Below are positions 41,060 through 64,000 of a stretch of 64,000 nt of DNA, one piece after another. Source of the stretch: Nitrospirales bacterium. Its GTDB lineage: Bacteria > Nitrospirota > Nitrospiria > Nitrospirales > UBA8639. The position numbers and the translations under genes are program-made. The notes under the pieces were generated by a model, which did no database searches, was not told the origin of the DNA, and saw only the letters and a list, made by a program, of their open reading frames with translations. Each line of letters starts with the position of its first letter. The first letter of the stretch is position 1. The stretch lies in the NCBI GenBank assembly GCA_021604005.1, contig BQIV01000001.1:124001-188000 (forward strand). The letters run 5' to 3'.

Positions 41060-41153
41060 GTTTCCCTAAAAGTTGAATTGCCAAAGAGTCCGGAAACCAA
41101 CCGTGTTTTCGAGCTCATGTTGACTATTTCCGTCCTTACGTTAGGGGGGCATC

Positions 41154-42428: not shown

Positions 42429-42434
42429 CTTCTC

Positions 42435-43730
42435 ATGAGACTGACACCCTCCTCATTCAAGACTTCCAAAGGGAGAAGTCGCATACGCGTGATAGGACTG
42501 CTGATCTTGATTACCGCGGTGGGGATCGGTGCCTATTGGTGGTTGACGGCAAAGCTATCGGTGCCCATGCCCCTGTATCAAACGGAAGGCATAGAAAAGA
42601 AAGCGGTCACAACCTTGCCACCGTCTCAGCCCTCCAAGACATCAGATAGCTCCGAAGAGAACAAGGTGGTAATGGTGAGTCCGCAAAAGCAACAACTGAT
42701 TGGGGTCAAGACGGAACCCGCCACGATTCGAGACCTGACGCACACGATCCGCACCGTAGGCCAGGTGGAAGTCGACGAAAGACGACTGACGCACATGCAC
42801 ACGAAATTAGATGGATGGGTCCAAGATCTGTACGTGAAGTTTACAGGTGAACAAGTCCGGAAAGACCAGAAACTATTTGAAATTTACAGCCCTGAGCTCG
42901 TATCCACCCAGGAAGAATATTTGTTGGCCTTAAAAGCCGTCAAATCCTTGGGGGACAGCGAATTCCCGGAAATTGCCCAAAACGCGAAGTCTTTGCTGGA
43001 AGTCACCCGCCAACGGTTTTCTCTGTGGGATATCACACCCGACCACATTCGAGATTTGGAACAGACCGGGGAAGTCCTCCGGACCTTGCCGTTGCATGCT
43101 CCTAGTTCCGGATATGTCTTGCAAATGGCCGTGCGGGAAGGCATGCATGTGACACCAGCTACGGAACTCTACACGTTAGCAGATTTATCGAGCGTGTGGG
43201 TCCTCGCAGATGTGTATGAATATGAAATTCCACTAGTTGAGCTAGGACAGGAAGCGACGATGACTCTGTCCTATTTCCCGGCTCAGGCCTTCACCGGCAA
43301 AGTGACCTATGTGTACCCCGTTCTGGAAACCAAAACTCGGACGGTGAAGGTTCGATTCGAGCTGCCCAATCCTGGATGGAAAATCAAACCCGGCATGTTT
43401 GCCAACGTGGACTTACAGATTCCTCGTGGCAAGCGACTCGTCGTTCCCACGACGGCGGTCCTTGATTCAGGAACGGAGCAACTCGTCTTTATTGATCAAG
43501 GCCAAGGGATGTTTGAGCCCCGTAAGGTCACGGTCGGCGTGCAGACCCGAGATGGGTACGAAATCGTCGACGGGATCACCACCGGGGAATTGGTGGTTAC
43601 GAGGGGCAACTTCCTAGTGGATTCGGAAAGCAACCTGAAAGCCGCCACGGAGATGATGATGCCGGGGATGGAAATGGGAAAGAAAGAGAAGACGGAACAA
43701 TCTGGTTCCATGCCGGGCATGCAACATTGA
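42435..43730 (+). CDS. cusB: CusB-like periplasmic adaptor
   Basis: 431 residues: N-terminal membrane anchor (about 20-37), a Ser/Thr/Pro linker, barrel-sandwich halves (L-D-G-W-V-Q-D-L-Y-V, L-H-A-P-S-S-G-Y-V-L), helical hairpin, beta-barrel and membrane-proximal domain (I-V-D-G-I-T-T-G-E-L-V-V). The linker region lacks the N-terminal Met triad known in E. coli CusB. Instead the C-terminal tail is Met-rich, M-M-M-P-G-M-E-M-G and S-M-P-G-M-Q-H, a likely Cu(I)/Ag(I) site. It joins CusA with CusC. Confidence 0.93.
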   Translation: MRLTPSSFKTSKGRSRIRVIGLLILITAVGIGAYWWLTAKLSVPMPLYQTEGIEKKAVTTLPPSQPSKTSDSSEENKVVMVSPQKQQLIGVKTEPATIRDLTHTIRTVGQVEVDERRLTHMHTKLDGWVQDLYVKFTGEQVRKDQKLFEIYSPELVSTQEEYLLALKAVKSLGDSEFPEIAQNAKSLLEVTRQRFSLWDITPDHIRDLEQTGEVLRTLPLHAPSSGYVLQMAVREGMHVTPATELYTLADLSSVWVLADVYEYEIPLVELGQEATMTLSYFPAQAFTGKVTYVYPVLETKTRTVKVRFELPNPGWKIKPGMFANVDLQIPRGKRLVVPTTAVLDSGTEQLVFIDQGQGMFEPRKVTVGVQTRDGYEIVDGITTGELVVTRGNFLVDSESNLKAATEMMMPGMEMGKKEKTEQSGSMPGMQH

Positions 43731-43746
43731 AGAAGGAATCCGTTTC

Positions 43747-46700
43747 GTGATTGAGAAAATCATCGAATACAGTGCGAGAAATCGATTTGTTGTCCTACTG
43801 CTGATCGTGTTTCTTGTTGCGTGGGGCGTCTGGGTCATGCGCGTGATGCCCTTGGATGCTATTCCAGATCTCTCCGATGTGCAAGTGATTATCTTCACGG
43901 AATGGCCAGGTCAGGCGCCGCAGCTCGTAGAAGATCAGGTGACCTATCCGATTGTCACGACGATGCTGGGAGCCCCCAAGGTTAAGGTGGTTCGGGGCTA
44001 TTCCTTTTTTGGACTCTCCTTTATCTATGTCATTTTTGAGGATGGCACTGACATGTACTGGGCTCGAAGCCGCATTTTGGAGTACATGAATGAAGCGATG
44101 AAAGTCTTGCCTGACGGCATCACGCCCACGCTTGGCCCAGATGCCACCGGCGTGGGATGGGGCTTTGAATATGCCGTCGTTGATCCCATAGGTCAGTTAG
44201 ATCTTGCAGAATTACGCACGCTGCAAGATTGGTATATCCGGTACTGGCTCAAGGCTGTCCCGGGCGTATCAGATGTGGCCAGCATTGGGGGATATGTACA
44301 GCAGTATCAGGTGAATGTAGAGCCCAATGCCATCCAAGCTTACAGCCTACCATTGGACAAAATCATGCACGCGATTCGCATGAGCAACAACGATGTGGGC
44401 GGTCGTGTGGTGGAATTCACTGGTCGGGAATACATGGTCTGGGGCCGGGGTTACGTCGAATCTGTGTCCGACCTCGAACAAGTGGCGGTGGGGACGGATG
44501 CGAACGGCACCCCCATCCTTCTCAAGGACATTGCGCGAGTGGAATTAGGGCCTGATCTTCGGAGAGGGCTCACCGAGCTGAATGGGACCGGTGAAGTGGT
44601 GGGTGGTATCGTCGTCGTCCGATTCGGGGAAAGCACCTTGGACGTCATTGAGCGCGTCAAGGCAAAGATCGAGGAGATCACTCCTGCTCTTCCGAAAGGC
44701 GTTGAAATCATTCCAACCTATGATCGATCGGATTTGATTCTCCGCTCGGTGGCGACACTCAAAGAAAAGCTAATTGAGGAAAGTATCATCGTGAGCCTGA
44801 TTACCATCATTTTTCTCTTTCACGTTCGCAGTGCCTTGGTTGCAATTCTTACGCTGCCGTTAGCCATTCTCATGGCCATTACCGCCATGTACTACCTGGG
44901 TGTCAGCTCCAATATCATGTCCCTGGGTGGAATCGCTATTGCTATTGGCGCCATGGTGGATGGAGCGATTGTGATGGTGGAAAACGCGCATAAGAAACTG
45001 GAGCGAGGCGGAAACGATGCCGATCGGGTCAGCCTCATCATTGAGGCCGCCAAAGAAGTCGGCAAACCCCTCTTCTTTTCGCTTCTGATCATCACGGTGT
45101 CCTTCTTGCCGGTGTTTACTCTAGAAGCGCAGGAAGGACGGCTCTTTCGGCCCTTAGCGTATACGAAGACCTTTTCCATGGGGTTTGCGGCGCTACTGTC
45201 GATCACCGTAGTTCCGCTCTTGATGGTGCTCTTGGTGCGAGGCCGTATTGCGAGTGAAGATAGGAATCCCCTCGCTCGTGTGCTGACCACCGGGTATCGC
45301 CCCATCGCACGATTCGTCTTTCGTTTCCGAAAGACGATGGTCATCCTTGCCGTTCTCGGGCTGGTCGCCACGTGGCCCGTCTTTACGAAGTTGGGGTCAG
45401 AGTTTATGCCTCCTTTGTATGAAGGCACGTTGATGTACATGCCGGTGACGTTGCCAGGCGCTTCTATCACTGAGATGCAGCGAGCCCTTCAAGTCACGGA
45501 TCGGATTATTGGGCAATTCCCCGAGGTGGAGAGTGTGTTTGGCAAAGCCGGTCGAGCCAGAACGGCGACCGATCCCGCACCACTCACTATGATCGAAACC
45601 ATTATTAATCTCAAGCCCGAAGATCAATGGCGACCAGGGATGACCGTCGAGCGCTTGGAGAATGAGTTAGATGAGGCGCTTCAGATTCCCGGACTGGCCA
45701 ATGCGTGGACCATGCCGATCAAAGGGCGGTTGGACATGCTCACGACAGGCATTCGCACCCCTCTCGGCATCAAAATTTTCGGCAGTGATTTGGATGAGAT
45801 TCAGCGCATTGGAGGAGAATTGGAGAATGCTCTTCGAGATGTTCCGGGAACCAGAAATATTTTCGCTGAACGAACGGGGGAGGGGTACTACGTCTATTTT
45901 AAAGTGAAACGGGAGGAAATCGCTCGATATGGATTGATGGTCAGTGATGTGGAGCAAGTTATCCAATCCGCGATTGGAGGAACCAATATTTCGACGACCA
46001 TCGAAGGACGAGAGCGGTTTCCGGTGAACCTCCGATACTCTCGTGCCTTTCGAAATACGCTAGAAGACCTCAAACGTGTGTTGGTCTCGACCTCGACCGG
46101 GCAACAGATTCCGATTACCCAACTGGCTGAGGTCAGTCTGGTGAAGGGTCCCACGGTCGTGAAAAGCGAAGGCTCGCTCTTAGTTGGGTATGTCTATGTC
46201 GACGTGGCTGGCCGTGACCTCGGCAGTTATGTGCAGGAAGCTCAACAAATCGTGGCCGAGCAAGTACCTATGCCTCAAGGCTATCACCTCAATTGGAGCG
46301 GGCAATATGAATATATGCAGCGAGCTAAAGCTCGTTTGATGTATGTGGTTCCTCTCACGATACTCATTGTGTTTCTCCTTCTGTATTTGAATTTTCAATC
46401 TATCGCGCGGAGCCTCATTGTCCTCCTGTCGGTCCCGTTTGCCGCGATCGGAGCCATCTGGTCACTGTACCTTCTCGAATATGACCTGAGCGTCGCCGTC
46501 TGGGTTGGGATTATTGCCTTGGTGGGAGTAGCTGCCGAGATCGGGATAATTATGATTGCCTATTTGGACCAGGCGTATGCACGAGGGCGCTCTGAAGGCC
46601 ACCTGACGACGATGAAAGATTTGATCGATACCGTCGTGGAAGGCAGTGTGAAGCGAGTACGTCCGATCACCATGACGGTTGGGTCGACGATTGCCGGGTT

Positions 46701-46926
46701 GCTTCCCATTATGTGGACCCATGGCAGTGGGGCCGATGTCACGAAGCGGATTGCGGCTCCGATGATTGGAGGCATGGTGACGACTTTACTGCTCACGCTC
46801 CTTGTTCTACCAGCGATTTACATCATATGGCGAGGATGGGGGTTAAAAAAAGAATCGGCCATGCCAGAGTTGAAAGAACACGTAGCGACTGAACACCAAA
46901 CATCGGAAGAAAGGAGTGGCGATTGA
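43747..46926 (+). CDS. cusA: CusA copper/silver RND pump
   Basis: 1059 residues, complete. TM1 (about 13-33) is followed by porter domain 1, TM2-6, porter domain 2 and TM7-12. TM4 has G-A-M-V-D-G-A-I-V-M-V-E-N-A-H, the Cu/Ag-type signature; TM10 region reads V-A-A-E-I-G-I-I-M-I-A-Y-L-D. It pumps Cu(I) or Ag(I) out of the periplasm with energy from protons. Start is GTG 43747 (no closer ATG). It is about as similar to the pump at 1-2193 as expected of paralogues. The TPR lipoprotein gene overlaps its stop. Confidence 0.95.
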   Translation: MIEKIIEYSARNRFVVLLLIVFLVAWGVWVMRVMPLDAIPDLSDVQVIIFTEWPGQAPQLVEDQVTYPIVTTMLGAPKVKVVRGYSFFGLSFIYVIFEDGTDMYWARSRILEYMNEAMKVLPDGITPTLGPDATGVGWGFEYAVVDPIGQLDLAELRTLQDWYIRYWLKAVPGVSDVASIGGYVQQYQVNVEPNAIQAYSLPLDKIMHAIRMSNNDVGGRVVEFTGREYMVWGRGYVESVSDLEQVAVGTDANGTPILLKDIARVELGPDLRRGLTELNGTGEVVGGIVVVRFGESTLDVIERVKAKIEEITPALPKGVEIIPTYDRSDLILRSVATLKEKLIEESIIVSLITIIFLFHVRSALVAILTLPLAILMAITAMYYLGVSSNIMSLGGIAIAIGAMVDGAIVMVENAHKKLERGGNDADRVSLIIEAAKEVGKPLFFSLLIITVSFLPVFTLEAQEGRLFRPLAYTKTFSMGFAALLSITVVPLLMVLLVRGRIASEDRNPLARVLTTGYRPIARFVFRFRKTMVILAVLGLVATWPVFTKLGSEFMPPLYEGTLMYMPVTLPGASITEMQRALQVTDRIIGQFPEVESVFGKAGRARTATDPAPLTMIETIINLKPEDQWRPGMTVERLENELDEALQIPGLANAWTMPIKGRLDMLTTGIRTPLGIKIFGSDLDEIQRIGGELENALRDVPGTRNIFAERTGEGYYVYFKVKREEIARYGLMVSDVEQVIQSAIGGTNISTTIEGRERFPVNLRYSRAFRNTLEDLKRVLVSTSTGQQIPITQLAEVSLVKGPTVVKSEGSLLVGYVYVDVAGRDLGSYVQEAQQIVAEQVPMPQGYHLNWSGQYEYMQRAKARLMYVVPLTILIVFLLLYLNFQSIARSLIVLLSVPFAAIGAIWSLYLLEYDLSVAVWVGIIALVGVAAEIGIIMIAYLDQAYARGRSEGHLTTMKDLIDTVVEGSVKRVRPITMTVGSTIAGLLPIMWTHGSGADVTKRIAAPMIGGMVTTLLLTLLVLPAIYIIWRGWGLKKESAMPELKEHVATEHQTSEERSGD

Positions 46927-49163: not shown

Positions 49164-49237
49164 AGAAGAGGGAGTGAGAGAAATATATCGGAAAACAAAC
49201 GTCGATATCTCACAAAATGAAAACTTGGAGGATGAAC

Positions 49238-51115
49238 ATGGACAGTCACAACAACAAAATAACCCGTCGTGCGTTACTGAAACGCGTCGGTACGCTCGGG
49301 CTGACGATGGCCATGGTACGCCTTCTTCCATCCTATGTCTGGGCAAGCGCCGCGACGACAGGGGCGACATCGACATCACAGTTGGACGGAACGGTCATTG
49401 AGTTACTGATTGATGAGACTCCGTTTCGAATTGGGGAGCAAACCGGGATGGCGAAGACCATCAACGGCACGTTGCCGGGTCCTTTGATCCGCCTGCAGGA
49501 AGGCCAAACCATCACCTTCAACGTCATCAATCGTTTGAAGGAAGATACCTCGATTCATTGGCATGGCTTGATTCTTCCGCCAGACATGGATGGCGTGCCC
49601 GGCGTCAGCTTCGCTGGTATCAAACCGGCCTCAACTTTTACCTACCGCTACCCGGTTCGGCAAAGCGGCACCTACTGGTACCACAGCCACTCCGGATCGC
49701 AGGAGCAATTGGGCGTCTACGGGCCAATCATTATCGATCCGATGGAGCCGGAGCCGTTTCAGTACACCCGTGACTATGTGGTAGTGCTCTCGGATTGGAC
49801 CTTCGAGTCGCCGGATGCGGTATTCGCCAATCTCAAAAAATTACCCAGCTACTATAACTTTCAGAAACGTGCTGCCCACGAGTTGTTTACCGACATAGGA
49901 CGAAAGGGTTTGTGGCCCACACTCCAGAATTACTTGATGTGGGACGGGATGCGGATGGACCCGACGGACTTCGCGGACGTTACCGGTTACGCGTATACTT
50001 ATTTGCTGAATGGTTTGTCACCCGCAAGCAACTGGACGGGACGCTTTCGTCCAGGCGACCGGGTTCGTCTGCGCGTCATCAATGCGGGCGCCATGACCTT
50101 CTTCGACGTCCGCCTGCCGGGTCTCCCTATGACGGTGGTACAAGCGGATGGACAAAACGTGCAGCCCGTCGTGGTGGACGAGTTTCGCATCGGACCGGCC
50201 GAAACCTACGATGTAATCGTCAATCCTACCGAGGATCGCGCCTACACTATATTTGCTGAGACGATGGATCGAAGCGGCTACGCACGCGGCACGTTGGCAC
50301 CGCGCACAGATATGAGTGCTCCGCTTCCCGAACGTCGTCCGAGGCCGCTCCGTACCATGGCTGATATGGGCATGAGCATGGAAGGGATGACCATGACCGG
50401 CATGGACATGGGAGGTATGGACAAGAATTCTTCCGATGACGGAATCCCCTCGACCCACCAGCGAATGACCATGCCCGGGAAACAGGAAACACAAGATACA
50501 CGGAACATGAACAAAATGTCAGATATTGCGATGGCTGATCCATATCACTCGACGATTCCTGGCGCCGAACCTGTCAGGCATGGCCCCGACGATCACGGAA
50601 CCGGCAACCAATCCGTAGCGGAGTATTCGTGGAATCAAAGTGGTGAACCCGGGAGAGGACTGGAAGATAGCAATCGACGCGTGTTGGTGTACACCGATTT
50701 GAAAAGCCTTGCCCCCTATCCCGACCAACGGGCGCCACAACGGGAAATCGAACTCCACCTCACAGGCCACATGGAGCGCTATATGTGGTCGTTCGACGGG
50801 AAGAAGTTTTCGGAGGCCAAAGAGCCCATTCGTTTTCGGTATGGCGAGCGTCTGCGCCTGACCTTCGTAAACGACACCATGATGGAGCATCCCTTACATC
50901 TACACGGCATGTGGATGCACCTTGAGAACGGCACGGGTGCCTACCTGCCGCGTAAGCACACGGTGGTCGTCAAGCCGGCGGAACGACTCTCCGTTGCGAT
51001 CACTGCGGACGCGCCAGGACGTTGGGCGTTTCACTGCCATTTGCTCCTTCATATGGAAGCGGGGATGTTCCGGATCGTCGAGGTGACTGACAGGGAAACG
51101 GAGATGCGATCATGA
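49238..51115 (+). CDS. copA: CopA/PcoA-type multicopper oxidase
   Basis: 625 residues from ATG 49238, six bases after ggagg. The N-terminus has a twin-arginine signal (T-R-R-A-L-L-K-R-V-G). Type 2/3 copper ligands are in S-I-H-W-H-G and Y-W-Y-H-S-H-S-G; the type 1 and remaining type 3 ligands in H-P-L-H-L-H-G and H-C-H-L-L-L-H-M-E-A-G-M. A Met-rich segment (about 380-405, M-G-M-S-M-E-G-M-T-M-T-G-M-D-M) binds extra copper. The enzyme oxidises Cu(I) to less toxic Cu(II) in the periplasm. copB overlaps its stop. Confidence 0.95.
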   Translation: MDSHNNKITRRALLKRVGTLGLTMAMVRLLPSYVWASAATTGATSTSQLDGTVIELLIDETPFRIGEQTGMAKTINGTLPGPLIRLQEGQTITFNVINRLKEDTSIHWHGLILPPDMDGVPGVSFAGIKPASTFTYRYPVRQSGTYWYHSHSGSQEQLGVYGPIIIDPMEPEPFQYTRDYVVVLSDWTFESPDAVFANLKKLPSYYNFQKRAAHELFTDIGRKGLWPTLQNYLMWDGMRMDPTDFADVTGYAYTYLLNGLSPASNWTGRFRPGDRVRLRVINAGAMTFFDVRLPGLPMTVVQADGQNVQPVVVDEFRIGPAETYDVIVNPTEDRAYTIFAETMDRSGYARGTLAPRTDMSAPLPERRPRPLRTMADMGMSMEGMTMTGMDMGGMDKNSSDDGIPSTHQRMTMPGKQETQDTRNMNKMSDIAMADPYHSTIPGAEPVRHGPDDHGTGNQSVAEYSWNQSGEPGRGLEDSNRRVLVYTDLKSLAPYPDQRAPQREIELHLTGHMERYMWSFDGKKFSEAKEPIRFRYGERLRLTFVNDTMMEHPLHLHGMWMHLENGTGAYLPRKHTVVVKPAERLSVAITADAPGRWAFHCHLLLHMEAGMFRIVEVTDRETEMRS

Positions 51116-52020
51116 GCGCGCCCATTCGAACCGTTCTTTTGCTGGCCTTGCTAAGTTTCCTGAGCGTGGGACTCGATGCGGTGGTTGCTTCCGCCCAGAC
51201 GATCCCCCTGGCATCGACCTCCTTGGGGATACCTACTCACACGACTCCCACGATGTATGCAGAGATGCAGCCGGGGACACCATCGGGTGCATCCACAGAC
51301 AAGGCAGAAACATTTCCACATGTATCCCCCCCACTTGACTGGCCCAGTCCGGTCGACGATGAGCAGAACCACTTCTTTTTTCTCGCTGACGTCCTTGAAT
51401 ACCGTCCGAAAACAGGCGGGTCAGGAAGTGGCAACGACTACCGATGGGACATCGAAGGCTGGTACGGCGGGGACTACAACCGCCTCTGGTTTAAAAGCGA
51501 GGGGCAGCAGAACAGCGCCTTTAAAGCGGATTACGACGTTGATTCTCAACTACTCTACGGACGTTTCTTTCAACAATATTACGACTTTCAAGTCGGCGGT
51601 CGCCTCGAAACGCAGTCGTTTGAGGATCGTAATGTGACACGGGGGCTGGCGGTGATCGGACTACAAGGACTGGTTCCCTATAACTACGAAGTCGAGTCCG
51701 CTCTTTTCGTGAGTCATCGCGGCCACGTGTCCGCGCGCTTAACGGGGACCAAAGACCTGTTCTTGAGTCAACGACTGATCCTCCAGCTTCGCTTTGAAAC
51801 CAACGCGGCCATACAACGCGTCAAAAAATTCACGACCGGCTCTGGGCTCAACAACGTCGAAGGGGGCGCGCGCCTGCGCTATGAAATTCGACGGGAGTTT
51901 GCCCCCTACGTGGGAGTTTCCCTGGACAGAAGTTTTGGCGAGACCGCGACACTCGTACGGCAGGAGGACGGAGACACGAGTCAGATTCGATTCGTGGTGG
52001 GAGTCCGGCTATGGTTCTAA
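51112..52020 (+). CDS. copB: CopB/PcoB outer-membrane copper resistance protein
   Basis: 302 residues; the start overlaps the copA stop (ATGA). After the signal peptide a short linker leads to the CopB domain: D-V-L-E-Y-R, a repeated alternation of hydrophobic and polar residues as in a 12-strand barrel, and the terminal aromatic residue F after V-G-V-R-L-W. The Met/His-rich N-terminal part typical of CopB is short (M-Y-A-E-M-Q). It may bind copper at the outer membrane. The co-occurrence with copA is characteristic. Confidence 0.93.
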   Translation: MSAPIRTVLLLALLSFLSVGLDAVVASAQTIPLASTSLGIPTHTTPTMYAEMQPGTPSGASTDKAETFPHVSPPLDWPSPVDDEQNHFFFLADVLEYRPKTGGSGSGNDYRWDIEGWYGGDYNRLWFKSEGQQNSAFKADYDVDSQLLYGRFFQQYYDFQVGGRLETQSFEDRNVTRGLAVIGLQGLVPYNYEVESALFVSHRGHVSARLTGTKDLFLSQRLILQLRFETNAAIQRVKKFTTGSGLNNVEGGARLRYEIRREFAPYVGVSLDRSFGETATLVRQEDGDTSQIRFVVGVRLWF

Positions 52021-54376: not shown

Positions 54377-56443
54377 ATGACAGACGGCTCTTTCCAAAGA
54401 ACTCCTGCCAGATGGTTTCTCGGGGTGGCCGTCATGACCGTGTGGCTTCTGGTATTGACTGACCCGGGTTACTCCCAAATCTCGCCTAAGGAACATGCCA
54501 GCCATCATCCAAATCAAGGCAACAGCTCAAGCGGAGTAGCAGGCGGGCAAAGACAAGAGGGCGGTCCCGGTAGCCTGGGCGGCGGTCCTCCTGGAGGGAA
54601 GGGCGGAAGCCCAGGTGGCATGATGGGGGGCGACATGGACAAAATGATGGAGAAAATGGGTGCGCCCAAACCCAAAGCCCTATACCCCACCCTCATGAGT
54701 CTTCCTGATTTGCCGTTTGAACAACGTGCCGAGGTACAACAGCAGGCGCATGAACGCATGAAGCAAGGAACAGCCCTGATGGCGGAGGGGCTGAAATCTT
54801 TATCCCAGTCGGCCCCCACAAACGATTTTTTAGCCATGCAAGAGGCCACGAGGAAGTTGCATGAGGGGCTGTCCCAATTCGAAAGTGGTCTGGCGGCCCA
54901 TCGCGCATTGGCAGAAGGCACGTTACCGCGCAATGTCGCCCTGCAATGGTTCAAGCAGGAAATGAACCTGCTTCCTCCAAGGGAGGGCAAGCAGGCCCAT
55001 GGGATTTTTGGACTGTCATGGTTTCATTTCTCTGTGATGCTGCTCCTTATCGGGTTTGCCGTGACTATGTTATTTCTCTACTTTTTCAAAATACGCCGCG
55101 CGGCCGCGCTACTCAATCGGCTTGCTGAAGATGCCGGCCCGGTGAATTCTCCACAAGCCGCTGCTCCTGAGAAACCAGCTGTCACTGCCGCCGTAGAAGG
55201 GAAACCATCGGACGGAGAAGGTTCACCATCAAATTCCCCAGCAACATCCGCCCGTCCGCCCACGTCACAAGAGGTGAAAAGTCCGGCAACGGCTTCTGCC
55301 GAATGCTGCGATGACTCATCGGACGTGTGTGCAACCGAGGAGCACGGCTCAACGGATCGACCCGATCTCTCGAAGGGACTCTTACCTATCGCCAAGAAGA
55401 AACTCTGCAGACTTCGAGTTTCCCAAATCTATCAGGAGACCCAGGATGTCAAGACTTTCCGACTCGTATCGTGTCATGGAGGTGGCATCCCTTTCAGTTA
55501 TTTGCCTGGTCAATTTCTTACGCTAACTATGCCGATCGGCGACAAGCCGATTCGGCGGAGCTATACGATTTCATCTTCCCCGACCCAAGGATACTACTGC
55601 GAGATCACCGTGAAGCGGGAAGAACAAGGCGCTGGATCCCGCTACCTGCACGATGTCGTCAAAGTCGGCGATACCCTTGAGGTTCAGGCCCCGAGCGGGA
55701 AATTTGTCTTTACCGGGACCGAGGCGGATAGCATCGTGCTCATCTCTGGTGGCGTGGGCATCACTCCGATGATGAGTATCACACGTGCATTGACTGACAT
55801 GGGCTGGAATGGTGATATCTATTTCATCGCGGCATACCGTGATCTTGATCACTTTATCTTTGAATCTGAATTGAAACGACTTCAAGCACGTCATCCAAAC
55901 TTACATGTTTTTATTGCCATGAGCAATCTGGAAAAGGACACCGATGGCTACCATCGCGGGCGGATTACCAAGGATTTACTTGCGCAGTGGGTACTCGACC
56001 TTGCGTCGAAGTGGATTCACCTTTGTGGCCCCATACCGATGATGGATGCTGTCAAGCAGATGCTGACCGAGTTAGGAGTACCTGGGGAGAAAATTCACAC
56101 CGAAAACTTTGGCTCACAGCAGAAACCACAGGCCAGGGCTGTAGAACGCGAGAAGACACTAAAAGCGACGCCGGTCGAGAAGGCTGGGACAGTCACGTTT
56201 CAGACATCGGGCAAATCGACGGAACTCCTGCCCGACGAAACCGTGCTGGAGGCGTCGGAACGAGTCGACGTTAATATCGACTATTCCTGTCGGACCGGCT
56301 CGTGCGGAGTGTGCAAGGTCAAACTTTTGTCAGGATCAGTGACCATGGAAGTCGAGGACGGCCTGGATCCGGACGAGAAAGTCGCGGGGATGATTCTGGC
56401 TTGTCAGGCCAAATCCACCGGAAACGTTACGGTCGATGTTTAG
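54377..56443 (+). CDS. Membrane-anchored flavoprotein with 2Fe-2S domain and periplasmic Met-rich domain
   Basis: 688 residues. An N-terminal export signal is followed by a Gly/Met-rich stretch (about 60-95, M-M-G-G-D-M-D-K-M-M-E-K-M) and a helical domain to about residue 210. One membrane helix follows (about 217-239), then a Ser/Pro linker. The rest is a ferredoxin-NADP-reductase-type module with R-R-S-Y-T-I-S-S (FAD), G-G-V-G-I-T-P-M-M-S and L-C-G-P-I-P-M (NAD(P)H), and a C-terminal ferredoxin C-R-T-G-S-C-G-V-C with a fourth Cys near the end. It should pass electrons from NAD(P)H to a partner, probably the membrane protein 15 bases downstream. Confidence 0.88.
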   Translation: MTDGSFQRTPARWFLGVAVMTVWLLVLTDPGYSQISPKEHASHHPNQGNSSSGVAGGQRQEGGPGSLGGGPPGGKGGSPGGMMGGDMDKMMEKMGAPKPKALYPTLMSLPDLPFEQRAEVQQQAHERMKQGTALMAEGLKSLSQSAPTNDFLAMQEATRKLHEGLSQFESGLAAHRALAEGTLPRNVALQWFKQEMNLLPPREGKQAHGIFGLSWFHFSVMLLLIGFAVTMLFLYFFKIRRAAALLNRLAEDAGPVNSPQAAAPEKPAVTAAVEGKPSDGEGSPSNSPATSARPPTSQEVKSPATASAECCDDSSDVCATEEHGSTDRPDLSKGLLPIAKKKLCRLRVSQIYQETQDVKTFRLVSCHGGGIPFSYLPGQFLTLTMPIGDKPIRRSYTISSSPTQGYYCEITVKREEQGAGSRYLHDVVKVGDTLEVQAPSGKFVFTGTEADSIVLISGGVGITPMMSITRALTDMGWNGDIYFIAAYRDLDHFIFESELKRLQARHPNLHVFIAMSNLEKDTDGYHRGRITKDLLAQWVLDLASKWIHLCGPIPMMDAVKQMLTELGVPGEKIHTENFGSQQKPQARAVEREKTLKATPVEKAGTVTFQTSGKSTELLPDETVLEASERVDVNIDYSCRTGSCGVCKVKLLSGSVTMEVEDGLDPDEKVAGMILACQAKSTGNVTVDV

Positions 56444-56458
56444 AGAAGTTGAAAACTC

Positions 56459-57223
56459 ATGAAGGAACGTGAAGCAGTAATCATTACCGGTCTAGTGCTT
56501 TTTCTTTCCCTTTTCTGGCTCGGCTTTCTTGTCCACCGATCGCCACGTTTTGCCGGGAGTTTGTGGGGAGGGGTGCTGGGCGTCAGCGGGGCGATGCTGA
56601 TGCTTGTTCCCCTGGCATATCTGGTCGTCAAACGAGTGAAATCGCTCAAACAGGCAGTGACTCGACGTGTGTCGATGCGCACGCTGCTCGCAGGGCATAT
56701 CTATGCCGGTGTTTTAGGACCGATCTTAGTATTAGTCCATACAGGGCATAAGTTTGAAAGTCCATTGGGTATTGCCTTAACCAGCATGACAATCATCGTC
56801 GTGTTGAGTGGATTCATCGGTCGCTACCTCATGGGTCGGATCTCTCAAGAAATTAAAGAAAAACGATCCATTCTTGATGGGCTAAACTCCTCATACCAGG
56901 AAACGCTCGAACGGCTGCGAACCTGCTGCGCGGCTAAATCGGTCCAACTTCAACCCTTTACCGGCTTTTTTTCGCGACTGTTGGGAAGACCTTTTTTCAG
57001 CATGCAGGAACAAGAGATGGATACGATGTCTATCGGTCTCCGTGCAGTTCGGCTTTCTGATGCGATTGCGGACCTGGAATACGCGATCAGGACGCACGAC
57101 ACCATCAAACACGTGTTTTCCTTGTGGCTGAAGATTCACATCACCTTATCCATGGTGCTGTATGCGCTTCTCGCCCTCCATGTTTGGGCAGCCGTTCACT
57201 TTGGATTGCGATGGTTTTCATGA
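56459..57223 (+). CDS. Membrane protein, probable b-type cytochrome subunit
   Basis: 254 residues, about five hydrophobic helices with a cytoplasmic charged segment between helices 4 and 5 (about 120-215). Two helices carry paired His: L-A-G-H-I-Y-A...V-H-T-G-H-K-F, and K-I-H-I-T-L...L-H-V-W-A-A-V-H. This pattern suits two b haems stacked across the membrane. The family is not firmly recognised. Between a cytoplasmic flavoprotein and periplasmic multihaem cytochromes it would carry electrons across the membrane (inference). Confidence 0.65.
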   Translation: MKEREAVIITGLVLFLSLFWLGFLVHRSPRFAGSLWGGVLGVSGAMLMLVPLAYLVVKRVKSLKQAVTRRVSMRTLLAGHIYAGVLGPILVLVHTGHKFESPLGIALTSMTIIVVLSGFIGRYLMGRISQEIKEKRSILDGLNSSYQETLERLRTCCAAKSVQLQPFTGFFSRLLGRPFFSMQEQEMDTMSIGLRAVRLSDAIADLEYAIRTHDTIKHVFSLWLKIHITLSMVLYALLALHVWAAVHFGLRWFS

Positions 57224-57243
57224 TGAAGATCGGGTAGTGATCT

Positions 57244-58044
57244 ATGGGTAAGTTTCGAATCGTGGCATTAACGCTCCTTACGATCTTAGGGGGATTGGGC
57301 CTTGTCTATTCCAGCGTTGGATCTCCGATGGCTGCGAACACCTGGCAGCGATTGGTCAATCCAGGCGAATTATCCGTCGTTCATGCTTCTCTAGAACAGA
57401 ACTGTGCAGCCTGCCATACCGCGGTCATGGGCGTCGAGGCGACAAAGTGCATTCTCTGTCATGCCAATGAAGAATCTCTCTTACAGCGTCAGCCGACGGC
57501 CTTTCACGCCGACGTCCAGGAATGTCGATCTTGCCATCTCGAACATCAAGGGCACGTTCGAAATCCGACGAATATGGATCACCTGGCTCTGGCCACGATC
57601 GGCTTGTTCACCCTTCCGAGTGACGAAGATTCTCTTGGCATGGCAGGGGGGGTGCGCTGGAATCTAATGAACTGGCTCGAGCATTCAGATAGTCTACTCG
57701 CTTCACCCCTTACCAACCGTCACATTGCACCAAAAGAAGCCATTTTGAACTGTGCGATTTGTCACAAAAACGATGATCGACATTTTGATCTCTTTGGCCA
57801 GGATTGCGCTCTGTGCCATGCCACACGGGCTTGGACTCTTCCAGAATTCCAACACCCTCCCGATGACTCAATGGATTGCGCCCACTGCCACCAAGCACCG
57901 CCCAGCCATTATATGATGCATTTCACCATGATTTCACAAAGGGTGGCTGGGCAACCACGGGCCCGAGTGGATCAGTGTTTTCTATGCCATCAGACGACCT
58001 CATGGCCGGATATAAAAAGGGCGGGGATGTATAAACATCATTAA
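57244..58044 (+). CDS. Membrane-anchored heptahaem cytochrome c
   Basis: 266 residues with an N-terminal anchor (about 8-30). Seven CxxCH haem motifs are seen: C-A-A-C-H, C-I-L-C-H, C-R-S-C-H, C-A-I-C-H, C-A-L-C-H, C-A-H-C-H and C-F-L-C-H. Extra His residues are available as sixth ligands. The arrangement resembles cytochrome c3/c7-type or nitrate-reductase-associated chains and ends with Y-K-H-H. It would accept electrons from the membrane protein upstream and pass them to, or from, the octahaem protein. A gap of about 180 bases precedes the HAO gene. Confidence 0.85.
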   Translation: MGKFRIVALTLLTILGGLGLVYSSVGSPMAANTWQRLVNPGELSVVHASLEQNCAACHTAVMGVEATKCILCHANEESLLQRQPTAFHADVQECRSCHLEHQGHVRNPTNMDHLALATIGLFTLPSDEDSLGMAGGVRWNLMNWLEHSDSLLASPLTNRHIAPKEAILNCAICHKNDDRHFDLFGQDCALCHATRAWTLPEFQHPPDDSMDCAHCHQAPPSHYMMHFTMISQRVAGQPRARVDQCFLCHQTTSWPDIKRAGMYKHH

Positions 58045-58224
58045 AGAGATGGACGTAAAGGAGATGAGGAGAAAGTTTTTGTGCATGAGATTCGTCCAAG
58101 ATGAACAACATGTGTATGGCAAGAAAAGACCGACACAAAATTGCTGCACGAATGCAGGTTCCTGAAGCCGAGTATCGAAAAAATAGGTGCAACTAACACG
58201 TAACACACTTGCAAGGAGACGGCT

Positions 58225-59730
58225 ATGAAAATCCTGAAACACGGCTGTTGGAAGAGAGCGTTCCTCCCAATATCGCTAGGTACGGCGCTCGTGGTGCTGG
58301 CTGGGGTCGTGCCGGTGATCTTGGACGTCGATAATGGGGAAGCTGCTCGCCCGGCTGGAGTGTACGGAAAGGATTGGGGAGATCCAAAAGGTGAAGAATG
58401 CGTCCTTTGTCATCGCAAGCATACACCCGGGCTTAATGAAGAATGGAATAAGAGTATGCACGGTCAAAGAGGCGTGAATTGCCTGGATTGTCACAAAGCC
58501 GATGGAAAGGATAAAGATAGCTTCCGGCACAAGGGACAATTGATCTCGGTTATCGTTACCCCAAAGGATTGTGCCCGCTGTCATACCAAGGAATTCGAGG
58601 AGATGGATGGCTCCCACCACTCCAAAGGAGGTCAGATTCTGGCATCATTGGATAACCTGCTAGGCGAAGTCGTCGGCGGTCCGGCTGCGGTGAACGCGGG
58701 ATGTAAGCAGTGTCATGGTTCGGTCATTGAGATCGGTGAAAACGGGAAACCTCTTCCGACCACTTGGCCAAATACCGGCATTGGTCGGATTAACCCAGAC
58801 GGATCCCTGGGTTCCTGTACCGCCTGTCATGGGCGACACCGGTTTTCTAAAGCTCAAGCCCGGACGCCTGATACCTGTGGGAAGTGTCACGTAGGTCCGG
58901 ATCACCCTCAGATTGAAGTCTACAATGAATCCAAGCATGGAATCCTTTACCACGCCAAGGTTGGTGAGATGAACCTCGAGTCTGATAAATGGGAAGCTGG
59001 CGTAGACTATTCGGCCGCCCCCACTTGCGCTACATGTCATATGAGTGCCGGAGGTGGAGAAACATCCACGCATAATGTCGGCGAGCGAATCTCGTGGACT
59101 CTGCGTCCGCCGATCTCTGTAAAGAACAACCTTGTGAAGTTGAAGAACGGAGATGAATTCGATGTCCCGGAAGGCAAGCCATTACCGAAGGTCGGCTCAA
59201 AGGCAAAAGGCTCCAAAGTGACCGAGGTACTCACCTGGAAAGAACGCCGTCTTAAAATGCAGAACGTCTGTACTGCCTGCCACACGGATTCCGTCATTCT
59301 TGGGCATTACAACCAGTTCGATAAGGTCGTCGATCTGTACAACGAGAAATTCGCCAAACCCATTGCGGCAGTCATGAGTGATTTGAAGAAGTCAGGAAAG
59401 ATTACCAAAAGTCCATTCGACGAAAAGATCGAGTGGATTTGGTGGGAGATCTGGCATCATGAGGGTCGTCGAGCTCGACATGGTGCTTCCATGAATGGCC
59501 CAGACTATACCTGGTGGCATGGGATTTATGAAGTTGCCAAGCACACGTATTTCGAGTTCATCCCAGAATTGGAGAAAGTTGCGGGTAAAAAAGACGCAAA
59601 GGAGTTGCTCGACAAGCACTTTAAACCTATTGCAGGTCACAGCTGGTACTTTGAAGGGATGAATCCCGCCCAACTTGAGGCAGTTCGAAAAGGCTTTGAA
59701 GCCCGCTACGGGAAAGGTTCCTTGAAATAA
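58225..59730 (+). CDS. hao: Octahaem hydroxylamine-oxidoreductase-family cytochrome
   Basis: 501 residues, signal peptide to about residue 42 and a good ribosome site. Eight CxxCH motifs: C-V-L-C-H, C-L-D-C-H, C-A-R-C-H, C-K-Q-C-H, C-T-A-C-H, C-G-K-C-H, C-A-T-C-H and C-T-A-C-H. The C-terminal helices contain G-P-D-Y-T-W-W-H-G, in which Tyr428 is a candidate for the cross-link to the catalytic haem of oxidising HAO; alignment is needed. Family members oxidise hydroxylamine or hydrazine, or reduce nitrite. No haoB is present, and a NapC-type gene follows, which fits either direction. Confidence 0.9.
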   Translation: MKILKHGCWKRAFLPISLGTALVVLAGVVPVILDVDNGEAARPAGVYGKDWGDPKGEECVLCHRKHTPGLNEEWNKSMHGQRGVNCLDCHKADGKDKDSFRHKGQLISVIVTPKDCARCHTKEFEEMDGSHHSKGGQILASLDNLLGEVVGGPAAVNAGCKQCHGSVIEIGENGKPLPTTWPNTGIGRINPDGSLGSCTACHGRHRFSKAQARTPDTCGKCHVGPDHPQIEVYNESKHGILYHAKVGEMNLESDKWEAGVDYSAAPTCATCHMSAGGGETSTHNVGERISWTLRPPISVKNNLVKLKNGDEFDVPEGKPLPKVGSKAKGSKVTEVLTWKERRLKMQNVCTACHTDSVILGHYNQFDKVVDLYNEKFAKPIAAVMSDLKKSGKITKSPFDEKIEWIWWEIWHHEGRRARHGASMNGPDYTWWHGIYEVAKHTYFEFIPELEKVAGKKDAKELLDKHFKPIAGHSWYFEGMNPAQLEAVRKGFEARYGKGSLK

Positions 59731-59769
59731 ATACCTTCGAGACTTGGAAATTCGCTTCGAGTTATCGAC

Positions 59770-60366
59770 ATGATACTGAAAGTATGGAAATGGTTTTGGA
59801 GTACAACCAGCAAGTATACCTGGGGAGCCATCTTCGTCGTAGGCGGGATCGCGGGGGTTATCTTTTGGGGTGGATTCAATACCGCCATTGAGTTATCGAA
59901 TTCGCTCTATTTTTGTGGCAACGTCTGCCATGAAATGAATGACTACGTCATTCCGGAATATCAGAAATCCATTCACTACCAGAACGCAGCGGGTGTGCGC
60001 GCAATCTGCTCAGATTGTCATGTCCCCAAAGAATGGGGACCGAAGGTAATCCGGAAGATTAAGGCTACCGGCGAGCTTTGGGGCAAAATTACCGGTTCCA
60101 TCAACACGAGGGAAAAATTCGAGGCCAAGCGTGAAAAACTCGCCATGCTCGTGTGGCTCGAAATGAAGGAAAACGATTCCCAGGAATGCAGGAACTGCCA
60201 TTCGTATGAGGCGATGGATTGGCACGCCCAGTCGCTTGTTGCGCAGCGTGATATGCGAAAAGCCATGAAGGAAGGTAAGACCTGCATCGACTGTCATAAG
60301 GGGATCGCTCATAAGCTACCCGAAGGCTATGACGAGGACACGCCAATTTATGACGATGACTTGTAG
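59770..60366 (+). CDS. NapC/NirT-family tetrahaem quinol dehydrogenase
   Basis: 198 residues with one N-terminal membrane helix (about 15-40) and four haem sites: C-G-N-V-C-H, C-S-D-C-H, C-R-N-C-H and C-I-D-C-H. The first is CX3CH instead of CX2CH, although it is followed by the family sequence C-H-E-M-N-D-Y-V-I-P-E-Y. Relatives (NrfH, NapC, cM552/CycB) exchange electrons between the quinol pool and periplasmic cytochromes. It lies 39 bases after the HAO gene and is its likely membrane partner. Confidence 0.88.
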   Translation: MILKVWKWFWSTTSKYTWGAIFVVGGIAGVIFWGGFNTAIELSNSLYFCGNVCHEMNDYVIPEYQKSIHYQNAAGVRAICSDCHVPKEWGPKVIRKIKATGELWGKITGSINTREKFEAKREKLAMLVWLEMKENDSQECRNCHSYEAMDWHAQSLVAQRDMRKAMKEGKTCIDCHKGIAHKLPEGYDEDTPIYDDDL

Positions 60367-60639
60367 GAATGCTAAGGCCGTCTGCCATGTGTGCGTTGAC
60401 GGCGGGTCAATTCGGAACAAACCTTGGTAGGGGCTAACAATGCATATGTAGAAATTTGCGGCACACAGCATTTTCCAAATGGGGAAGGAAGCCACATGTC
60501 TGAATGTTATGTAAGTCAATCATTATCTTTAACATACTGATCTCTTTTCATTTTGTGGTGGCATTTTTTTTGCTTAACCAATTGACATTCTGATTATCAT
60601 CTTCCTCCTCTTATTAAAGTAACCAAACAAGAAATTCCA

Positions 60640-61005
60640 ATGAATCCTCATACGAGACAGGTTAAATTACTCCTTACCTACCTATTACTCTTTACCTTTT
60701 CGGTATGCGGGTTGGGAGGCTTGTTTTGCGCAATGCCAGCCTCCGCAACCGACGCACACCATTCTCAATCAACTTCTCACCATCCATCCTCCCAAGATGG
60801 GGAGTGTCCGGATCAGTTCAAAAACGCTAAAAAGCAGTCCGAGCGATTCTCCGTTGTCCTCGTTCAAGTTGAAAATCTGGAAAACCTCGGAATGGGGATT
60901 GACTCATTCCAATCTCGTATCTCTAAACATTTTTTCAAAGAGGGCACGATCATTCCCTCTACCTATCCTCCTCCGTTCCTTCTCTTCTCCGTTCTTCTAA
61001 ACTAA
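60640..61005 (+). CDS. Small His/Cys membrane protein, copy 3, before ECF sigma
   Basis: 121 residues: N-terminal helix ending C-G-L-G-G-L-F-C-A-M-P-A-S-A-T-D, then H-H-S-Q-S-T-S-H-H-P-S-S, E-C-P-D, and a C-terminus S-T-Y-P-P-P-F-L-L-F-S-V-L-L-N. It is closest to copy 4 (62134). It precedes an ECF sigma gene by about 190 bases rather than an efflux gene. Membership of the family argues for a shared role in metal response, for example as a sensor or anti-sigma partner. This is untested. Confidence 0.78.
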   Translation: MNPHTRQVKLLLTYLLLFTFSVCGLGGLFCAMPASATDAHHSQSTSHHPSSQDGECPDQFKNAKKQSERFSVVLVQVENLENLGMGIDSFQSRISKHFFKEGTIIPSTYPPPFLLFSVLLN

Positions 61006-61194
61006 GCCCCCTTACAACCTAAGTGTCTAAAAGGTCAGAAACCTTTTGTGTTTCTGCGTTCATAACTACGGCATGAACGGGTTTGAAGTTCCATCAGAGG
61101 AAGGAGTTCCTGACAGACAAACAGAGCGAATTATCATTAATGGGAATTGAACCATAAGGAATGCGACCACTCTACGGAATAACGGTCACAAAAG

Positions 61195-61815
61195 ATGGAT
61201 CTCAGGATGACTAGCAATAAAATGACATCAAAATTCTCAACACGTTCAGGCCCCTCAAAATTGGAACCAATTGTAAGGACGGCTCTTGTTCAGAATCGCA
61301 AAAAATTCCTGCAATTTCTCAACCTGCGGGTAGGAAACATGGACATTGCTGAAGAAATACTTCAGCAATTTTGCATGAGAGCCCTCAATAAGGGAGGCGC
61401 TCTCAAAAATCCTGAGAGTGTGGTGGCTTGGTTGTATCGTGTGCTGAACAGCACGTTGACAGACTTTTTTCGTCGTGAAGCAAAGAGACATAAAGAGGAG
61501 GGCGAATTTGCCCGTCTGGAACTCAAGCAGGTTCAAGAATTGGACATAAACCCTGTAACAGTCTGTGCGTGCATCTATGAGCTCATTCCGACTCTCAAAG
61601 CTGAGTATTCAGAAATTTTTCAACGAATTGATCTTAGGGGGGAATCACATGCAAAGGTCGCGAGTGATCTGAGAATCACCGGCAATCTTGTGCGAGTTCG
61701 GTTACATCGGGCTCGACGGGCACTCAAGGAAGCCTTACTGATGTCTTGTTGTAAAACCTGCCATGAGCACGGCTTTATGCATTGCGAATGTACGCACGGG
61801 GCAAAAGACCATTGA
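61195..61815 (+). CDS. ECF sigma factor with C-terminal Cys-rich tail, copy 1
   Basis: 206 residues. Sigma region 2 (A-E-E-I-L-Q-Q-F-C-M-R-A and V-V-A-W-L-Y-R-V) and region 4 (I-D-L-R-G-E-S-H-A-K-V-A...N-L-V-R-V-R-L-H-R-A-R-R-A-L) are clear. The tail reads S-C-C-K-T-C-H-E-H-G-F-M-H-C-E-C. In CorE-like sigma factors such Cys-rich tails sense metals directly, without an anti-sigma factor. A Cys pair also lies in the linker (V-C-A-C). The relative at 62599 has the same layout. Target promoters are not known; the copper genes of the window are candidates. Confidence 0.9.
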   Translation: MDLRMTSNKMTSKFSTRSGPSKLEPIVRTALVQNRKKFLQFLNLRVGNMDIAEEILQQFCMRALNKGGALKNPESVVAWLYRVLNSTLTDFFRREAKRHKEEGEFARLELKQVQELDINPVTVCACIYELIPTLKAEYSEIFQRIDLRGESHAKVASDLRITGNLVRVRLHRARRALKEALLMSCCKTCHEHGFMHCECTHGAKDH

Positions 61816-62133
61816 GCCTGGATTCAATCACCGGTGAGGCGGTGAGGCATTTCCCGTCATTCCTATGATTGGTTTTTCTGAAAAGGAGTTGGAAGCCTTC
61901 TGTATGGCACAAGGGAGTAACATTGATGTATGGCCCAACAGATAAAGTCAGGTGCTTGCGTAGGCTGAGGGCAGGAACATTTGAAGGCGGGATTAGGGTT
62001 TGTGCATCTGTTCATAAACAAGGATTCTATCGTGAAGCAGGGAGGAAGCTGATGAAGAACCTCCATAAACCTTGGTCAGTGGAGTTCGTATTCCGAAAAT
62101 ACTCAAGATTTTTCACCGGTGCATAAAATTTCC
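61816..62133. other. Duplicated intergenic block with a copy of the manC 5' end
   Basis: The stretch 62000-62079 resembles 63341-63420, which includes the ribosome site and first codons of the mannose-1-phosphate guanylyltransferase gene (ATG 62052 corresponds to ATG 63394, offset 1342). The copy reads M-K-N-L-H-K-P-W and then loses homology, so no enzyme is encoded here. An open frame at 61869-62126 passes through this block but has no other support. Confidence 0.7.
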
Positions 62134-62499
62134 ATGAATCCTCCAACGGTACAGAATAAATTAGTTCTTACTTATTTTTTACTCTTCACCTTTTTGGTCT
62201 GCGGGGTGGAGGGCTTATTTTGCCCAATGCCAGCCTCCGCAACCGACACACACCACTCTCAACCAGCATCTCACCATTCGTCATCCCAAACTGGTGAGTG
62301 TCCGGATCAGCTCAAAAACTCTGAAAAAGAGTCTAAGCGATTACCCGTTGCCCTTCTTCAGGTTGAAAAGCTGGAAAACCTCGGAAGTTGGCTCGACCTG
62401 TTCCTATCTTGTATCACTAAACGATATTTCAAAGAGAGCACGCTCACACCTTCCTCCTATCCTCTTCTGTTCCTTCGCTTCTCTGTGCTTCTAAATTGA
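62134..62499 (+). CDS. Small His/Cys membrane protein, copy 4, before ECF sigma
   Basis: 121 residues from ATG 62134, chosen by alignment with copy 3 (both start M-N-P); a GTG at 62119 is in frame. Helix ends C-G-V-E-G-L-F-C-P-M-P-A-S-A-T-D, then H-H-S-Q-P-A-S-H-H-S-S-S, E-C-P-D, and a C-terminus S-Y-P-L-L-F-L-R-F-S-V-L-L-N. It lies 99 bases before the second ECF sigma gene. With copy 3 it forms a tandem duplicated two-gene cassette. Confidence 0.78.
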   Translation: MNPPTVQNKLVLTYFLLFTFLVCGVEGLFCPMPASATDTHHSQPASHHSSSQTGECPDQLKNSEKESKRLPVALLQVEKLENLGSWLDLFLSCITKRYFKESTLTPSSYPLLFLRFSVLLN

Positions 62500-62598
62500 G
62501 TTCCTTCACCGTTTAGGTATCTCAGAATCCAGAAGCACGATTTCTTTCTGGGTTCATAGCAGCGGTGTATTTATTTATTCAATTTTAGGGGGCAGGAC

Positions 62599-63321
62599 AT
62601 GAGAACAAACTCATACGAAGGTTTACCCAGAGAAGAATTGTGCCGAGTGCGGCATACCATGAACGGAACATCGATTATCGATAGCGGATTGAAAGAAAGA
62701 AAGGCCCTTGTGGAAGCGGCACTGATTCAGAATCGCAAACAGTTTCTGTCTTTTCTCCACCGACGGGCAGGGAGCTTGGATTTTGTCGAAGACATCTTTC
62801 AGCAATTCTGTCTTCGTGCCCTCACCAATAGCGCAACCCTAAGAAATCCAGAAAGGGTCGTCGCGTGGCTCTATCGGATTCTCCATAGCACGTTGGCCGA
62901 TTTTTTTCGAAGTGAAAACCGACGGCAACGTGACGAGTCAGCATACACCCAATATCAGACCGAACAGGGTGGTACCAAGGAGAATGATCCAGAGAAAATT
63001 TGCGCCTGTTTTATAAAGGTTTTGCCTACGCTCCAGCCCCGGTATTTTCGCATGCTGGAGCGAATCGATCTGCGTGGAGAATCACGCGAAGAAGTCGCAA
63101 GGGATTTGGGCGTTACGAGCAACCTCGTACGAGTGCGTTTGCATCGGGCGCGGCGGGCTCTTAAGGATGCACTCCTGGACTCATGCCAGGCTTGCTGTCA
63201 TGAACAGAGATTCATGGACTGCGATTGTGTTGGAGGAGAAGAGGTGCACGGCATCAGTCGAAATCACAGCAACTGTAATGCGGTGAGATCTTTAACGTCT
63301 TATAAGAGGAGGACAGGATGA
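62599..63321 (+). CDS. ECF sigma factor with C-terminal Cys-rich tail, copy 2
   Basis: 240 residues after ribosome site aggggg. Region 2 (D-I-F-Q-Q-F-C-L-R-A-L, V-V-A-W-L-Y-R-I) and region 4 (I-D-L-R-G-E-S-R-E-E-V-A, N-L-V-R-V-R-L-H-R-A-R-R-A-L) are well conserved with the copy at 61195. The tail, D-S-C-Q-A-C-C-H-E-Q-R-F-M-D-C-D-C, has the metal-sensing pattern, followed by a Ser/Asn/Arg-rich end not found in copy 1. Differences in the tail may give another metal preference. Confidence 0.9.
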   Translation: MRTNSYEGLPREELCRVRHTMNGTSIIDSGLKERKALVEAALIQNRKQFLSFLHRRAGSLDFVEDIFQQFCLRALTNSATLRNPERVVAWLYRILHSTLADFFRSENRRQRDESAYTQYQTEQGGTKENDPEKICACFIKVLPTLQPRYFRMLERIDLRGESREEVARDLGVTSNLVRVRLHRARRALKDALLDSCQACCHEQRFMDCDCVGGEEVHGISRNHSNCNAVRSLTSYKRRTG

Positions 63322-63393: not shown

Positions 63394-64000
63394 ATGAATA
63401 CTCCAAATAAACCTTGGGCAATTGTTCTGGCGGGAGGTGAAGGAGAGCGAGTGAGGCCACTAGTGCAATCCTGGTTGGGACGGCACAGGCCCAAACAATA
63501 TTGTACGTTTGTGGGAACCCGTTCGATGTTTCAGCATACGCTCCACCGTGCAGCCAAACTGACGACTCCCGACCGGATGGTGACCGTCGTAGCTCATGGA
63601 CATGGAAACGAACCCTGGACACAGTTTGACGGAATTTCGGGGATACAAGTCCTGCGTCAACCGCTGAACTGTGACACGGCTGCGGGAATATTTCTTCCTC
63701 TCGCCTACATCCGTGCAAGAGATCCGAAGGCGACGGTGGTTCTTTACCCGTCCGACCACTTTGTGCATCCCGAAGACCGGTTTTTGAAAGTGGTTCAGTA
63801 TGCCGTGAAGACTGCAGAGCAAACACCCTGGCGCTTGGTTCTGCTTGGTGTACAACCGGATAGTCTCGAGTTGGAATATGGTTGGATTCAGCCAGGGTCA
63901 ATGCTCGATCAGTCAAGCTCCTACCAGGTGCGGGCCGTACGGGCATTTTTGGAAAAACCAAATGTCATGCAAGCCAGTCGAGCGATGGCTGAGGGGGCTG
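63394..64000 (+). CDS. manC: Mannose-1-phosphate guanylyltransferase (3' end outside window)
   Basis: The frame starts five bases after agggaggg and is open to the window edge (202 codons). It begins W-A-I-V-L-A-G-G-E-G-E-R-V-R-P-L, the nucleotide-binding signature of sugar nucleotidyltransferases, with R-P-K-Q-Y, a P-L-N-C-D-T-A-A-G-I loop and V-V-L-Y-P-S-D-H-F-V. GDP-mannose feeds exopolysaccharide and O-antigen synthesis. A degenerate copy of its first codons lies at 62052. Coupling to the sigma factors upstream is not clear. Confidence 0.88.
   Translation, partial: MNTPNKPWAIVLAGGEGERVRPLVQSWLGRHRPKQYCTFVGTRSMFQHTLHRAAKLTTPDRMVTVVAHGHGNEPWTQFDGISGIQVLRQPLNCDTAAGIFLPLAYIRARDPKATVVLYPSDHFVHPEDRFLKVVQYAVKTAEQTPWRLVLLGVQPDSLELEYGWIQPGSMLDQSSSYQVRAVRAFLEKPNVMQASRAMAEGA

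Follow-up and report, generated by a model that had tools for sequence, protein, structure and literature searches.

We analysed a 64,000-nucleotide stretch of Nitrospirales DNA (the window) and found two CorE/ECF44-like, putatively metal-sensing sigma factor genes, each placed behind a probable CutF-like leader ORF; we lean slightly toward the view that the leader is an exported nascent-chain sensor that gates translation of the sigma factor. The fuller proposal, which we hold with a little less conviction than doubt, is that such a sigma factor, gated by an exported nascent chain, is expressed from a sigma-54 promoter so that two sensors in two compartments act in series on one mRNA, that the arrangement originated from a collapsed operon, and that the leader founds a CutF-like family outside DUF2946. 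The window is part of contig C1 of a 4.7-Mb genome (a draft assembly of 92 contigs), the nearest named relatives of which are the Nitrospirales MAGs NPIRA04, OFTM334, and NPIRA01. The small exported proteins are called sp below, and the cassette region comprises the following features.

60640-61005, + strand: sp1, small exported leader-like protein of 121 aa, copy 1 (ORF, alignment)
61195-61815, + strand: sig1, CorE-like ECF sigma factor with tail CCxxC-x7-CxC; the start may be 61207 (Pfam, alignment, tree)
61967-62078, + strand: remnant of the gmp 5' end, a duplication scar (repeat D3, blastn)
62079-62080, no strand: junction of the tandem duplication (blastn homology switch)
62134-62499, + strand: sp2, small exported leader-like protein of 121 aa from ATG 62134, copy 2 (ORF, alignment)
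62599-63321, + strand: sig2, CorE-like ECF sigma factor with tail CxxCC-x7-CxC (Pfam, alignment, tree, RNA model)
63394-64000, + strand: intact gmp (mannose-1-phosphate guanylyltransferase), running beyond the window end (NTP_transferase match; GMP_PMI below cut-off)

As the initial annotation had proposed, two cassettes of the same order lie in tandem (sp1, sig1, sp2, and sig2, then gmp). All four ORFs were confirmed at the coordinates listed, and three collinear direct repeats with 80%, 71%, and 75% identity indicate a segmental tandem duplication; at the protein level, sp1 and sp2 are 67% identical over 121 aa, and sig1 and sig2 are 52% identical over 189 aa. The third repeat (D3) is a 112-nt remnant of gmp, derived from the 5' end of the gene found intact after copy 2. 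Between the copies, blastn matches to gmp extend as far as 62078 and those to the NPIRA04 sp 5'UTR take over at 62081, and thus the junction falls at 62079-62080. At the gmp locus, the host genome has both cassettes and the inspected relatives have one each. A recent duplication was rejected because sig1 and sig2 belong to separate clades of the tree that are older than the genus, implying that the duplication is old. An Rfam search of the window gave no matches. Just 5' of the cassettes (54377-60366) lie a ferredoxin-reductase-like fusion, then multihaem cytochromes and a NapC/NirT-type cytochrome, and a TraN-like gene of F-type type IV secretion at 9729-11006 hints that part of the island arrived with a conjugative element.

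Both sigma factors matched Sigma70_r2 and Sigma70_r4_2 above the Pfam cut-offs, contain between the sigma regions a CxC linker (CAC in both) whose Cys residues are invariant in alignment A1, and carry the Cys-rich tails previously described for them. The cassettes lack a linked anti-sigma gene, the neighbours being sp, gmp, and the NapC-type cytochrome. By the sequence criteria of PMC8999054 (including the CxC definition) and PMC3107203, sig1 and sig2 are CorE-like factors (ECF44 within ECF238), as had been suggested. Indeed, CorE and CorE2 of Myxococcus xanthus (formerly ECF44, now ECF238) share with them sigma2 and sigma4, the CxC linker, the C-terminal Cys-rich domain, and the absence of an anti-sigma gene, whereas in sig1 a Phe takes the place of the activating Cys (C189 in CorE) and both cassette genes are located behind a leader ORF. 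When aligned with the M. xanthus homologue, C186, C189, C197, and C199 of sig1 fall on C181, C184, C192, and C194 of CorE in exact register, and the sig2 tail has one extra residue between the Cys pairs, a one-residue shift from the CorE register. The reported difference between the two tails is real, and in a tree built with the tails removed, the tail types CCxxC and CxxCC track the sigma clades; a split of metal specificity between them is possible. In this tree, sig2 grouped with the sigma factors that occur singly at gmp in NPIRA04, OFTM334, NPIRA01, and L031 (support 100/100), and sig1 grouped with those of L111 and L032 (95/90), next to a third group containing a frameshifted third copy from the host genome. 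This third CorE-like gene (L022:6604-7310, or C1:209604-210310), approximately 22 kb past the cassettes, has frameshifts in its N-terminal part and in its Cys tail, and it lies beside an OEP gene, a multicopper oxidase gene, and a Cys-rich ORF that resembles copper storage proteins. NPIRA01 (L027) has another sigma gene with all five CorE-type Cys residues in the tail.

The small proteins form a family with two further members in the window.

40688-41059, + strand: sp3, same family, first gene ahead of cusC-cusB-cusA (family search, alignment, Pfam of neighbours)
41154-46926, + strand: cusC-cusB-cusA efflux genes after sp3 (OEP, HlyD_D23, ACR_tran)
5631-5999, + strand: sp4, further family member (family search, alignment)

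Of 48 genomes from the taxonomic family, 20 contain members of the sp family, and a phylum sample of 295 genomes yielded them only in that one Nitrospirota family. They adjoin a sigma factor gene in six genomes, covering both sigma lineages; most of the others are directly upstream of cusC-like genes, and contig 22 of the host genome has an sp ahead of another cusCBA-type gene set. The ORF after sp4 (6247-6783) had no Pfam match, and multicopper oxidase and CopB genes are found downstream of cusCBA at 49217-52020. The sp2 ORF opens at 62119 or 62134, with ATG 62134 most likely being the translation start. In the alignment, the proteins show what by eye is a clear N-terminal export signal and a plausible signal-peptidase site between ASA and TD, and they thus appear to be exported rather than clearly membrane bound, unlike the "small membrane protein" of the initial annotation.

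Residues C23, C30, M32, H47, and C56 and several C-terminal residues are invariant in the alignment of the family, and conservation is highest at the Cys and Met residues of the signal peptide and at the extreme C-terminus, with a variable middle. Despite this variable middle, C56 lies 59 to 66 residues from the C-terminal end. The last 16 codons conserve their amino acids while the codons themselves vary, with many synonymous changes: Pro at -12 is found in 28 of 28 sequences and uses four codons, and Asn at -1 is found in 27 of 28. The resulting motif is Y-P-x-x-F-L-x-F-S-x-x-L-N-stop. PP occurs in the last 15 residues of only a minority, sp1 among them, and RAPP is absent. No Pfam match to DUF2946 (PF11162) was obtained for sp, and none exceeded the cut-off in the 48 genomes; together with an hhalign probability of 0.4%, this led us to reject membership of DUF2946. 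The idea that DUF2946 genes adjoin CorE-like genes in other phyla was likewise rejected, as a profile made from the DUF2946 proteins of 30 such genomes gave no match below an E value of 0.15 at the CorE loci.

Behind sp lies an RNA element, which was located, as a whole or by its hairpin, at three positions in the window.

41048-41157, + strand: RNA element between sp3 and cusC (helix and hairpin; used to train R1, 118 bits)
61031-61061, + strand: conserved RNA hairpin 3' of sp1 (alignment A5, covariation)
62488-62602, + strand: RNA element with the sp2 stop, hairpin 62525-62555, SD 62587-62592, and ATG 62599 (model R1, hairpin covariation)

At the cus loci, where the intergenic region is approximately 85 to 96 nt in the main cases, the bases directly 3' of the sp stop (e.g., GTTTCCCTAAC) form a helix with the following SD (GTTAGGGGGGC). 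Over 12 loci, 93.2% of the cells of this anti-SD/SD helix are paired, with compensatory changes at three pairs; neither the paired fraction nor the covariation score was reached in any of 500 shuffles, and sliding the pairing lowered the paired share to 45 to 61%. An intervening hairpin is common to cus and sigma loci (93.1% paired, with six pairs changed on both sides), and one of its pairs is G-C in 7 of 7 cus loci and A-U in 6 of 6 sigma loci. The hairpin was rejected as an intrinsic terminator, as no T run follows it. Together, the RNA element and the conserved C-terminal end of sp point to sp being a cis-acting leader ORF.

A close parallel in organization is CutF of Rhodobacter capsulatus (cutFOG): like sp, it is a first gene with metal-ligand residues and a conserved C-terminus, followed by an SD enclosed in a stem-loop, and it has an export signal, as sp appears by eye to have. 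Cotranslational export, metal binding, a C-terminal delay, and unfolding of the stem-loop over the next SD have been shown experimentally for CutF (PMC9973294). However, no homology between sp and CutF was detected, CxxxC is absent from sp, most sp proteins lack the C-terminal PP by which CutF-like proteins were collected, and the next gene encodes an oxidase in the case of CutF but CusC or a sigma factor in the case of sp. Because sp is not a DUF2946 protein and mostly lacks PP, we propose that it works like CutF, not that it is a CutF homologue. CruR of Bordetella pertussis, a DUF2946 protein, is a related leader of opposite sign, with copper lowering expression via Rho (PMC9426467); its CXXC and RAPP motifs are absent from sp. 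A further parallel is offered by CusD/SilD/CzcI-type proteins, which are small and exported and whose genes open RND efflux operons ahead of cusC or czcC; PMC9973294 lists or discusses them as CutF-like. The sp family differs in being limited, within the sample searched, to a single Nitrospirota family and in also preceding sigma factors. CutF-like genes ahead of cusC-type genes are already known.

In the mechanism that we propose, sp would be exported during its own translation, and a metal, probably copper, would be bound by its conserved Cys, Met, and His residues in or near the translocon. Metal-bound sp would then hold the ribosome at the conserved C-terminus, where the paused ribosome would cover the arm just 3' of the stop that otherwise pairs with the next SD, allowing translation of the next gene, which is cusC at the cus operons and the sigma factor gene in the cassettes. 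Extracytoplasmic metal would thereby gate synthesis of a sigma factor that may in turn read cytoplasmic metal through its Cys-rich tail. The sequence itself shows the operon positions, the conservation of the family, the RNA covariation, the promoter match, the junction, and the CorE-type features of the sigma factors; that sp binds metal and pauses the ribosome, the direction of the response, the targets, and the control of the sigma factors are inferred.

Alternatively, sp might bind metal in the periplasm as an accessory to Cus efflux, in the manner of a CzcI- or CusF-like chaperone, and adjoin the sigma genes since both are metal responsive, with the RNA element serving only translational coupling or mRNA stabilization. 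It would suit this explanation that sp is secreted, bears His, Cys, and Met, and sits in efflux operons. An accessory role is nevertheless rather unlikely in our estimation, given the concentration of conservation at the two ends of sp, with a variable middle, and the covarying anti-SD that starts right at its stop.

The element was also sought with R1, a covariance model trained on cus loci alone, so that the sigma loci lie outside its training set. In 48 genomes, R1 matched only sp 3' ends. Among the examined loci, the matches ranking after the cus-type and L142 ones were those of OFTM334 (28.4 bits), NPIRA04 (27.4 bits), and window positions 62488-62602 (23.5 bits), the last with an E value of 0.032 over 194 kb as a sequence outside the training set; the sp1-sig1 site reached 18.7 bits (E value of 0.3). 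The element behind sp2 ends exactly on ATG 62599. This leader-linked ATG is the long sig2 start, 62659 being the candidate conserved among relatives, and its equivalent in NPIRA04, OFTM334, NPIRA01, and L031 begins a short ORF ending upstream of the sigma gene. In folding calculations for most cusC-type loci, NPIRA01, and sp2, the SD of free mRNA came out as closed and became more open once a ribosome was placed at the stop, but shuffled 5' arms often closed a G-rich SD as well, so that this accessibility result lends weak support; the same calculations found no SD sequestration at sp1-sig1. The SD-hiding stem-loop is backed by covariation at the cus loci and only partly kept at the sigma loci, and support for the proposed leader regulation is strong at the cus loci, moderate at sp2-sig2, and weak at sp1-sig1.

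Transcription of the first cassette may start at a sigma-54 promoter, and candidate sites precede two of the sp genes in the window.

60559-60574, + strand: sigma-54 (-24/-12) site TGGCATTTTTTTTGCT, 81 nt before sp1 (perfect match to TGGCAYNNNNNTTGCW)
40602-40617, + strand: sigma-54 site before sp3 (pattern match)

In relatives, comparable sites fall at -80 to -116 relative to the sp genes, at both cus and sigma loci, and the pattern has 36 matches genome-wide against 9 for the reversed pattern. No such site was found upstream of sp2, as expected if the duplication unit started downstream of the promoter, and copy 2 would probably be expressed by read-through. Sigma-54 activator domains occur in 29 proteins of the host genome. 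A PAS-domain sigma-54 activator on the same island (19252-20694) is a candidate regulator of the sp promoters, and a GC-poor stretch upstream of the sp1 site (60470-60515) with a repeated TGCCACAT-like word, equivalents of which are present in L025, L026, L031, and L111, is a candidate activator binding site.

The cassettes look like collapsed sp-cusCBA-TPR-sigma operons with the sigma gene in the cusC position, inasmuch as the full row sp-cusC-cusB-cusA-TPR-sigma is present in the relative L200; in further relatives the order is cusA-TPR-sigma or TPR-sp-sigma-gmp. Most simply, such an ancestral operon would have lost its middle by internal deletion, which placed the sigma gene behind the leader. 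In NPIRA04 (L025:7219-8073), a CorE-like sigma gene is fused in frame with the C-terminal end of a TPR lipoprotein, in what looks like a further collapsed cus operon.

Such an origin would also fit cassettes that are decaying remnants, in which the leader no longer regulates and the sigma factor is constitutive or expressed from elsewhere. Degradation of the SD helix at the sigma loci, the short ORF ahead of the sigma gene in relatives, and the frameshifted third CorE-like copy agree with decay. Against this, the cassette sp genes are under purifying selection (pairwise dN/dS of approximately 0.3 to 0.56), the C-terminus and hairpin are intact in six genomes, and the sigma-54 site is retained at all tested loci except sp2, and we regard decay as improbable. 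A dedicated protein partner of the sigma factor, either a membrane co-sensor or anti-sigma-like, is very improbable: sp does lie beside sigma genes of both lineages in six genomes, but it is exported with a short cytoplasmic N-tail, most family members lack an adjacent sigma gene, the sigma genes of the sig3 clade and L032 lack an adjacent sp, and CorE works without an anti-sigma factor (PMC3107203). The initial annotation had called the small protein dedicated to the sigma factor, which does not accord with a family located mostly ahead of cusC-like genes, and nothing suggests sigma binding; its idea of paired metal sensing may hold in a different sense.

Efflux, oxidase, and transporter genes are already known to stand behind CutF-like leaders. 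The main texts of two papers on such leaders (PMC9973294, PMC9426467) neither mention a sigma factor as the gene downstream of such a leader nor name Nitrospirota. If our proposal of leader-gated sigma synthesis is true, a translational periplasmic sensor would be wired to a cytoplasmic transcriptional sensor, so that sigma output would depend on two metal pools. The cassettes would also illustrate the rewiring of an operon by loss of its middle, and the defined covarying RNA element and the short C-terminal motif would provide handles for metal-gated translation in Nitrospirota.
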